A DNA stretch of 39,205 nt from a virus. Where the stretch lies: IMG/VR virus record IMGVR_UViG_3300017917_003960, positions 1-39,205 of that record; one strand, written 5' to 3'. The position numbers and the translations under genes were made by a program. Shown here in pieces: positions 6,985 to 24,764 of this stretch (its first letter is position 1; each line of letters opens with the position of its first letter). Below the pieces are notes generated by a model. It was not told the origin of the DNA, searched no databases, and saw nothing but the letters and a program-made list of their open reading frames with translations.

Positions 6985-7074
6985 AGTCAGGTGGCAATTG
7001 GTGTCACAGGTGCTTCGGGGCCTGTATCACGCTCCCTGTAGTGGGGGGTACAGGTTCGAATCCTGTCCTGACTT
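6985..7074 (+). tRNA. Aberrant class II tRNA-like gene, 8-nt anticodon loop
   Basis: Acceptor AGTCAGG/CCTGACT and a canonical T-arm (ACAGG-TTCGAAT-CCTGT) are clear. The D-arm could form up to six pairs (GTGGCA/TGTCAC) around ATTGG. The anticodon arm CAGGT/GCCTG leaves an 8-nt loop GCTTCGGG, and a long variable arm (CTCCC/GGGGG) follows. The nearest reading is UCG, which does not suit a class II tRNA (Leu, Ser, Tyr, Sec). Isotype is unassigned. Confidence 0.55.
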
Positions 7075-7079
7075 CAAAG

Positions 7080-17416: not shown

Positions 17417-17423
17417 AATAAAA

Positions 17424-17452
17424 AACCCCTCCCGAAAGAGGGGTTCTTTTTT
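17424..17452. terminator. Bidirectional intrinsic terminator
   Basis: Stem AACCCCTC/GAGGGGTT with loop CCGAAA, a T-run on the plus-strand side and an A-run (T on the minus strand) on the other. It can end the 99-residue gene on the plus strand and the tmRNA on the minus strand. Confidence 0.9.
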
Positions 17453-17863
17453 TGGTGGAGGTGGCGGGAATCGAACCCGCGTCTTGCTCAGTTTACCCAT
17501 AAAGGACTACATGCTTAGGTCAGGGTTTTTCACACCCTCCGAACTATTTGGTTTCTATTTTGCCATCGTCACCAACAACTGTGGGGTGTTCACTCAAATC
17601 GGTAGAACACCAAACATGACCTCCATTCCTTTTAAGGTAGAAACCACACCGTAGGGACTTCTGTTTCTAGGTTACATGTCCACCGACCCATTGTTGCTGA
17701 AGCCTTAGGCTACAGTAACTTCCTCAGCTTGGATAAGACCCAAAGCCTCGAGTGTTGCGAAAGTTTCGCCGTTTGATTTTTGCCCCCGTAGATTAAAGTG
17801 ATAGGAAACTTCTCACTGCATGCCCCGTATGATTAACCCTGCCAATCAATACCGGTCACCCCC
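17453..17863 (-). ncRNA. ssrA: tmRNA (phage-encoded, atypical tag)
   Basis: A 411-nt minus-strand tmRNA. The tRNA-like domain has acceptor GGGGGTG/CACCTCC, discriminator A and encoded CCA, with T-arm GCGGG-TTCGATT-CCCGC. It rescues stalled ribosomes by adding a tag and ending translation. The likely tag frame runs 17776 to 17705: it aligns SNGETFA with the ANDENYA start of the E. coli tag, but then continues to 23 residues and ends EEVTVA before TAA, not ALAA. The resume codon (UCA) is inferred from this alignment. SmpB is not in the window and is presumably the host's. Confidence 0.92.
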
Positions 17864-17881: not shown

Positions 17882-17893
17882 CAAATATAAATA
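17882..17893 (-). promoter_or_regulatory. Composite promoter for tmRNA (minus strand)
   Basis: On the minus strand the sequence reads TATTTATATTTG, so a late octamer TATTTATA (17886-17893) overlaps a host-like TATATTTG (17882-17889). It lies 18 nt before the tmRNA 5' end. Either or both could drive the tmRNA, giving expression through the infection. Confidence 0.6.
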
Positions 17894-20437: not shown

Positions 20438-20491
20438 ATGAAAACGTATCTATTCTTTCAAATTATTGTAAATCAATCGGAAAATGAATGA
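20438..20491 (+). CDS. 17-residue leader ORF
   Basis: An ATG-initiated ORF, MKTYLFFQIIVNQSENE, just downstream of the promoter. Its TGA lies within the first codons of the peptidase gene (ATGAATGA), a layout for translational coupling. It could be a leader that helps ribosomes load, or chance. Confidence 0.3.
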   Translation: MKTYLFFQIIVNQSENE

Positions 20492-21317
20492 TTTTGAATT
20501 TTTGAAAGAACTGCTATCAGTTCGTACTGCGACTTATAATGAAGAACTTATGGTCCAATACATTTGTGATTGGTTGGACAAAGAGGGTATCCCTTATGTT
20601 GTTGATGAGATGATGAATGTTTATGCTACCAAGACCACGCAAGGGTATGAGGATAAACTTTACCCTTGTATGGTTGCACATACTGATACGGTTCACCATT
20701 TTGAAGATGAGATTATCGTTCATGAGGAAATATTACCAAATCGTCAGAAACAAGGAAAGTTGTCTCTGAAAGGGTACGATCCAAAAGGTAAACCTGTTGG
20801 TATTGGTGGTGATGATAAGTGTGGTGTATATGGTGCTTTGGTTTCACTCCGTGACCTACCCCACCTCAAAGCGGCATTCTTCGTTTCAGAAGAAACTGGA
20901 TGTTGGGGATCTCGTAAGGCTAGTCCAGAGTTTTTCTCTGATGTTGCTTACGCAATTCAATTGGATGCCCCAAGTAATTACATGGTGACTGAAGTCTGTT
21001 CAGGTATTAGGTTATTTGATCGTAATTCGGAATTTTTCCGAATTGCTGATGAAGTTTTGACAGAAAAGTTTGCTCATCATGAATTTCAGATCCATCCTTA
21101 CACGGATGTTTCACAATTGAAAATGAAATTTGATTTTTCCTGTATAAATTTTTCTTGTGGTTATTATAATTATCATACAATGCACGAGTATGTTGTTGTG
21201 GAGGATCTTCAAAATGCCATCCATACTGCACACGAGATGATAAACAGATTAGGATATACAAAACACGAATATGAACGTCAAGGATACCATCGGAGTTTAC
21301 CCTGGGGCTCTGTCTGA
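20484..21317 (+). CDS. M20/M28-type metallopeptidase or deacylase
   Basis: A 277-residue protein with the di-zinc hydrolase signature: H66 and D68 (MVAHTDT), D110/D111 (IGGDDKCG), the catalytic pair E136-E137 (VSEETGCWGS) and D161 (QLDAP), with a final His in TMHEYV. This resembles PepT-like M20 exopeptidases, without the full dimerisation domain. Substrates are short peptides or acylated amino acids; the phage role is unknown, possibly supplying amino acids. It overlaps the next gene by 47 nt. Confidence 0.8.
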   Translation: MNDFEFLKELLSVRTATYNEELMVQYICDWLDKEGIPYVVDEMMNVYATKTTQGYEDKLYPCMVAHTDTVHHFEDEIIVHEEILPNRQKQGKLSLKGYDPKGKPVGIGGDDKCGVYGALVSLRDLPHLKAAFFVSEETGCWGSRKASPEFFSDVAYAIQLDAPSNYMVTEVCSGIRLFDRNSEFFRIADEVLTEKFAHHEFQIHPYTDVSQLKMKFDFSCINFSCGYYNYHTMHEYVVVEDLQNAIHTAHEMINRLGYTKHEYERQGYHRSLPWGSV

Positions 21318-24293: not shown

Positions 24294-24764
24294 ATGTTTG
24301 GAAGAGGAGATTCTTTTGATGACTTGTTCAATGAACTAAACAATATGTTTGGTCGTAATAATCCGTTCGGTGGGCGATTTGGTATTCACGGAAAAAATAA
24401 CGTAGAAAAAGGAAAAGATGAAAATGGTGAATGGAACAAAGAAACCTTCACATCTGATGATGGTAAAATTGTCATTACTAGTTTTGTTCGTACCTCAGGA
24501 TTTGATGACGACATGCTGACCAGTATGTTCAAAAACAAAAAACAAAAAGATAGTGGTGTTGAAGGACTCAAGAAAGAACTTCAACGAGCAATTGAAAATG
24601 AAGATTACGAATTGGCAATTGCCATCCGTGATAAGATCAAACAACGAGAAAACTCTCAAGAAACAATTGACAAACTTGAAGCGGAACTCAAACAAGTAAT
24701 TTCAGATCACAACTTTGAAAGAGCGATTGAGATCCGTGAAGAACTTAAAAAACTGAAGATGTAA
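24294..24764 (+). CDS. UVR-motif protein, possible Clp adaptor
   Basis: A 156-residue protein. The C-terminal half has two UVR (UvrB/UvrC-type) motifs in tandem: LKKELQRAIENEDYELAIAI... (about 90-115) and LEAELKQVISDHNFERAIEI... (about 128-153). UVR motifs mediate binding in UvrB/UvrC, McsA and ClpC. The N-terminal half is Gly/Asn/Phe-rich (MFGRGDSFDDLFNELNNMFG) and then beta-like; McsA-type zinc Cys are absent. It is divergent from the N-domain-less clpC, suggesting a partner that pairs with the ClpC M-domain. That role is inferred. Confidence 0.7.
   Translation: MFGRGDSFDDLFNELNNMFGRNNPFGGRFGIHGKNNVEKGKDENGEWNKETFTSDDGKIVITSFVRTSGFDDDMLTSMFKNKKQKDSGVEGLKKELQRAIENEDYELAIAIRDKIKQRENSQETIDKLEAELKQVISDHNFERAIEIREELKKLKM

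Follow-up and report, generated by a model that had tools for sequence, protein, structure and literature searches.

A Conserved Long tmRNA Tag Inherited with a ClpC-like Unfoldase in a Lineage of Bacteroidota Phages

Which protease, if any, would read the tag of a phage tmRNA when that tag is long and does not end in ALAA? The question is raised by IMG/VR record IMGVR_UViG_3300017917_003960, a 39.2 kb viral fragment encoding a T4-type terminase, portal, and prohead protease, which we analyzed over its full 39,205 nucleotides (hereafter the window). The initial annotation described a complete tmRNA with an encoded CCA here, and the Rfam covariance model agrees; RF00023 covers the gene end to end (model positions 1-374) at 88.9 bits (E = 2e-33), where the gathering cut-off is 47 bits. 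The tRNA-like domain, as read from the sequence, contains a T arm, an acceptor stem GGGGGUG/CACCUCC with the alanine identity pair G3-U70, and CCA, and the RNA further contains a tag frame, a resume signal with A at -4, and a stop codon. Compensatory changes back 27 of 44 consensus pairs in an RNAalifold analysis of 20 diverged relatives, including pairs of the T stem and of the long stem adjoining the tRNA-like domain. Among 72 distinct sequences upstream of tmRNAs in relatives, 58 contain a motif like the promoter element of Table 1, where shuffles expect 6.2, and many relatives likewise have hairpins after the tmRNA. When run with default settings on the window, ARAGORN did not call the tmRNA. 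It called 26 tRNA genes, all on the plus strand between 26 and 15239, one of which (6985-7075) has an undetermined anticodon.

Table 1. Positions in the window of the tmRNA gene, its signals, and the neighboring protein genes.
Feature	Position	Strand	Remarks
One-piece tmRNA (ssrA)	17453..17863	-	411 nt, encoded CCA; RF00023 match
Predicted tag frame, 21 codons from GGC (GETFATLEALGLIQAEEVTVA), closed by TAA	17705..17770	-	Resume motif, -4 A, conserved frame
Promoter element TATATTTG, Bacteroidota type TAnnTTTG	17882..17889	-	Lies upstream of the tmRNA 5' end by about 19 nt
Hairpin plus T run, like an intrinsic terminator	17420..17452	-	Directly after CCA; read from sequence
M20-family peptidase (PepT-like)	20484..21317	+	Between clpC and tmRNA; in 77/80 clpC loci
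ClpC-like double AAA+ unfoldase, 664 aa	22110..24104	-	No N-terminal domain; GIGF ClpP-docking loop
Small UVR-motif protein (McsA/UvrB-type motif)	24294..24764	+	Divergent from clpC; beside clpC in 38/80 loci

Relatives were drawn from IMG/VR, with 80 loci fetched by the clpC-like gene of the window and 16 more by the tag end AEEVTVA-stop. A regular expression for tmRNA ends recovered only 14 of these 96 loci; iterative nhmmer, used in its place, yielded 72 full-length tmRNAs (the window and 71 more), with further ones coming from Rfam searches over entire records. A tmRNA is found in 62 of the 80 clpC loci, invariably on the clpC strand, and the remaining 18 contigs stop 5.6 kb or less from clpC. 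Wherever a related contig is long enough to show it, the tmRNA sits downstream of the phage clpC on the same strand. Contigs selected by terminase were added to avoid choosing by clpC, and those extending to the region carry clpC, together with the tmRNA where they are long enough. The long-tag tmRNA and clpC are thus co-inherited in strict synteny across the phage lineage. We also note two features of the T-loop in these relatives. The loop reads GGGAGGCGGTATCCC or similar, instead of GGGTTCGANTCCC, at the 3' ends of otherwise complete tmRNAs in loci L012, L019, L038, L048, L056, and L061. In several others a group I intron (RF00028; 76.5 bits in L097) splits the T-loop after GGGTT, with sites at L097 7420-7637, L103 7158-7373, and L099 9098-9274 and at the tmRNA ends in L050, L088, L015, and L076. 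The intron site looks like the T-loop subsite reported from class Bacteroidia only (PMC11915505), now in phages.

The tag most likely begins at the Gly codon of the motif TTAAAC/GGC, which aligns between the phage tmRNAs and those of Bacteroidota hosts. The bases before the resume codon are TTAAAC or close in 30 Bacteroidota genomes, and the phage resume codon is Gly, rarely Asp, behind a host-like base pattern across 84 tmRNAs. An A occupies position -4 in 30/30 host and 84/84 phage tmRNAs, where this base served as a filter in collecting the phage set and no phage tmRNA failed it. The two codons before the Gly vary freely; among the relatives the first would encode L, S, I, T, V, or P and the second N, D, T, K, or others. 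From an alignment with E. coli, the initial annotation had proposed a 23-residue tag starting SNGETFA and ending EEVTVA rather than ALAA. We rejected a resume point at its Ser on the strength of the host-shared motif and of the freely varying codons before the Gly. With the resume point most likely at the Gly and the two extra residues preceding it, the window tag has 21 codons rather than 23, or 22 residues when the Ala from the tRNA part is counted. The long tag and its EEVTVA ending both hold in this frame. The tag differs from the canonical proteolysis tag of about 10 residues ending in ALAA or a close variant.

This departure is a property of the whole lineage. Among the 84 related phage tmRNAs there are 58 different tags, every one 21-22 residues long and none ending in ALAA, whereas the host tags have 9 residues and end in LAA or MAA in 30 of the 30 Bacteroidota genomes sampled (for example GENNYALAA, GNTQYAMAA, and DNTSYRLAA). 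The commonest tag length in a 2025 database paper is 10 residues (PMC11915505). Relative to the one-piece tmRNA of Bacteroidota cells (RF00023; GENNYALAA), the phage RNA shares the architecture, the TTAAAC/GGC motif, and the Ala identity pair but differs in tag length, in tag sequence, and in C-terminus. Among the 49 distinct 21-residue tags, G11 and L12 are invariant, A21 is changed once, 42 tags have K6, and only Met or Leu occurs at position 7. The family accordingly combines a conserved middle of the KMxxLGL type, which in the window reads TLEALGL, with a hydrophobic C-terminus, VxVA, that is likewise conserved.

Could the long tag nonetheless be a neutral relic, a pseudogene, or the product of a wrong reading frame? 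Such a reading could appeal to ARAGORN, which makes no call by default and with relaxed thresholds proposes unrelated tag frames. However, the tag frame has no internal stop, whereas the other two frames are interrupted in 55 and 53 of the 57 distinct sequences. Third-position differences in the tag frame are synonymous in 5187 cases versus 901 otherwise, although these pair counts across sequences are non-independent events and RNA structure may add constraint. The mean BLOSUM score between tags is 2.4 in the tag frame and 0.5 in both other frames. Reasoning from the most conserved frame has been applied earlier to Carsonella tags (PMC4131195). By far the best reading of this conservation pattern is a peptide selected at the protein level. 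The frames from relaxed ARAGORN runs are ruled out by frame conservation across the relatives, and a chance or pseudogene tmRNA by the selection on the tag together with the compensatory pairing. With the conserved resume motif, its invariant -4 A, and the promoter motif also weighing against it, the relic reading is largely refuted at the sequence level, and we regard it as very improbable.

We then asked what the phage ClpC could contribute. The window protein contains AAA, AAA_lid_9, AAA_2, and ClpB_D2-small domains with a UVR-type middle region, and it aligns with a Staphylococcus-type ClpC (6em8) from ClpC residue 150 on. Across 79 phage loci, the D1 pore loop follows the in-frame stop by about 115 residues (186 in two loci) versus about 285 in hosts, which leaves hardly any locus with space for the adaptor-binding N domain. 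We call the window protein ClpC-like and N-domain-less because this N-terminal domain, which belongs to a full ClpC, is missing. The ClpP-docking loop G[IV]GF, identical to that of hosts, is present in 68 of the 79 phage proteins and reads GTGIGFGG in the window. In a quick tree, 29 phage ClpCs form a single clade (support 100) separate from 28 host and three huge-phage proteins. The small UVR-motif protein encoded next to clpC is a possible ClpC partner. In one relative (contig G067 of locus L288, 45288-50772), clpC lies in three parts, with two insertions of about 1.8 kb near the Walker motifs that are possibly inteins or introns.

The peptidase that such an unfoldase would require is encoded in 14 of 20 long related contigs. 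Each of the 13 phage ClpPs that were aligned has an intact Ser-His-Asp triad, and clpP is invariably on the tmRNA strand, 14-27 kb further downstream. The phage ClpPs are 71-83% identical to the protein of the nearest relative of the window (G001), which is itself 43-47% identical to the main Bacteroidota ClpP. No ClpP was found within the 39.2 kb of the window. Colinearity with G001, in which positions 120-473 of the window correspond to L312 5711-6094 and clpP lies at L312 4113-4640, leads us to predict a clpP of the window phage about 1 kb past the left end. Since several long relatives, such as contigs of 242 kb and 294 kb, lack ClpP, the phage enzyme is not universal in the lineage; the ClpP-less long contigs carry tags of the same kind (L301, L304). 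SmpB is encoded in just 2 of the 20 long relatives (L104 and L105, contigs G009 and G006).

Taken with the synteny, these genes suggest to us that the phage ClpC, acting with phage or host ClpP, uses the tag as a degron, a reading to which we assign a probability of about 0.5. A host-type promoter would drive the phage tmRNA, AlaRS would charge it via G3-U70, and SmpB, the host's or in a few relatives the phage's own, would deliver it to stalled ribosomes, where translation would resume at GGC and append Ala plus 21 residues. The N-domain-less phage ClpC would then recognize the tag and thread tagged proteins into ClpP, which would be phage-encoded in most long relatives and supplied by the host otherwise. 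The phage would thereby free ribosomes and recycle truncated proteins without relying on the host ClpX route. The E. coli tag has two parts, an adaptor part and a ClpX part, and the conserved middle and conserved C-terminus of the phage tag may be said to resemble it in layout. With its N domain missing, the phage ClpC should not use host adaptors that bind this domain; as an idea only, this would suit an enzyme that reads its own tag directly or works through the UVR protein. That the lineage owns a host-orthogonal pathway, made up of the tmRNA degron, its own N-domain-less ClpC, ClpP in most members, and SmpB in some, is a stronger statement that we hold more tentatively, at a little under even odds. 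Linkage among phage genes on the kilobase scale is weak evidence for joint function.

The same tag might instead spare its products, so that truncated phage proteins avoid host ClpXP and survive, or are recruited elsewhere, while ribosomes are still freed. The phage tag is unlike the host tag over almost its entire length, and several unrelated phages bear long, differing tags. Avoidance, however, requires few C-terminal changes rather than 21 conserved residues, and a co-inherited unfoldase with ClpP suggests degradation. We consider sparing a rather improbable role for the tag.

Long tags also occur in other phages of Bacteroidota. Cellulophaga phages phi38:1 and Calle (L360, L368) have a 30-residue tag, GNNTNAVNAQIEANMEAVNAILNLEVAVGV, and the crAss-like Cellulophaga phage phi14:2 (L367) has a 38-residue tag, GNDTDNTQLKANMTVVHNILNGSDALIGSSVQKLAMVA, both predicted behind the same resume motif; the phi14:2 tmRNA scores 46.0 bits, slightly below the RF00023 cut-off. 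phi38:1 and phi14:2 are cultured phages of two families, and the tmRNA gene is unannotated in both records. The two tags show a relationship with one another (0 of 2000 shuffles score as high), and their comparison with the present family gives p values of 0.03 and 0.48. An early ungapped comparison had appeared positive for homology with the present family, but it used a wrongly started tag, and with the proper start the similarity is unconvincing. Because the Cellulophaga tags are not convincingly related to the present family, long tags probably arose more than once among Bacteroidota phages. Neither AAA_2 nor the ClpP family is matched in Calle_3, and phi14:2 has no tblastn match to ClpC or ClpP; long phage tags can thus exist without a phage Clp system.

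These cases bear on the proposal that the tag is still read by proteases of the host, either ClpXP or, as in Mollicutes, Lon. Its long middle would then serve for spacing or for a host adaptor, and the phage ClpC would have another task, for example degrading host or defense proteins. In favor of this proposal, the long tags of other Bacteroidota phages come without detected Clp genes. At their C-termini the phage tags have small hydrophobic residues (VA, AA), and the LVA variant AANDENYALVA serves as a degradation tag in E. coli (PMC3439342), so that the C-terminal VA may engage host ClpX. In Mesoplasma florum, the 27-residue tag of mf-ssrA is read by Lon (PMC3439342). Two observations stand against host reading. 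ClpX reads only the last residues of a tag, which would not explain why Gly-Leu never varies midway through 49 distinct 21-residue tags, and the strict co-inheritance of the tag with clpC would likewise go unexplained. On balance we find host reading unlikely, but worth keeping in mind. The initial annotation had suggested that a changed tag sends rescued peptides to another protease. The syntenic phage ClpC, and ClpP in 14 of 20 long relatives, lend this circumstantial support, whereas the lack of ALAA proves little by itself because tags ending in VA can be read by ClpX.

The shift of a long tag to a different protease has a precedent in Mesoplasma, whose tag is also unlike the ALAA type (PMC3439342). 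The two tag sequences are unrelated, and the candidate reader here is ClpC with ClpP, in a phage, rather than Lon. Phage-encoded tmRNAs are known from mycobacteriophage Bxz1, Bacillus phage G, Streptomyces phages, and Melnitz (PMC4131195, PMC9004378). The annotated tags examined from such phages have 11-13 residues and end in ALAA or AVGA, and the accounts consulted report no linked clpC. Huge phages with tmRNA and SmpB have also been described (PMC7162821). Like the present lineage, they combine genes for translation and ribosome rescue in a large phage genome, and the records searched also contain ClpC and ClpP. A ClpP encoded by LR745206 shares 72% identity with that of the present lineage. 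Huge phage LR756511, unlike the present lineage, has an ordinary tag, ANPEFAMAA. In the loci of LR745206 and LR756502 searched with the lineage model, no long-tag tmRNA was found near ClpC, and both gave only weak, short RF00023 matches. A 484 kb uncultured huge phage, LR756508 (L319, about 1600-1710), has a tmRNA with a different candidate tag of 36 residues, GVNNADYESAGFTAEDFAQMDGESLYHGSERKPAAV, behind TATAACT/GGC, known from a single sequence.

Taken separately, tmRNA, phage tmRNA, long tags, and phage ClpP are already known. A literature search that covered few subscription journals gave no paper describing phages in which a conserved long tag of the lineage's own is linked with ClpC and ClpP. 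Known phage tmRNAs mostly resemble copies of cellular genes with ordinary tags; here the tag is rewritten, and dozens of diverged phages keep it under selection and inherit it together with a phage unfoldase and often also a protease. Other long tags in cultured Cellulophaga phages bring the wider question within reach of the bench. A private tag-and-destroy pathway may operate during infection in a large family of Bacteroidota viruses. If that pathway is orthogonal to the host, it would give one answer to the question of why tmRNA occurs in phages, as well as a new degron-protease pair for Bacteroidota.
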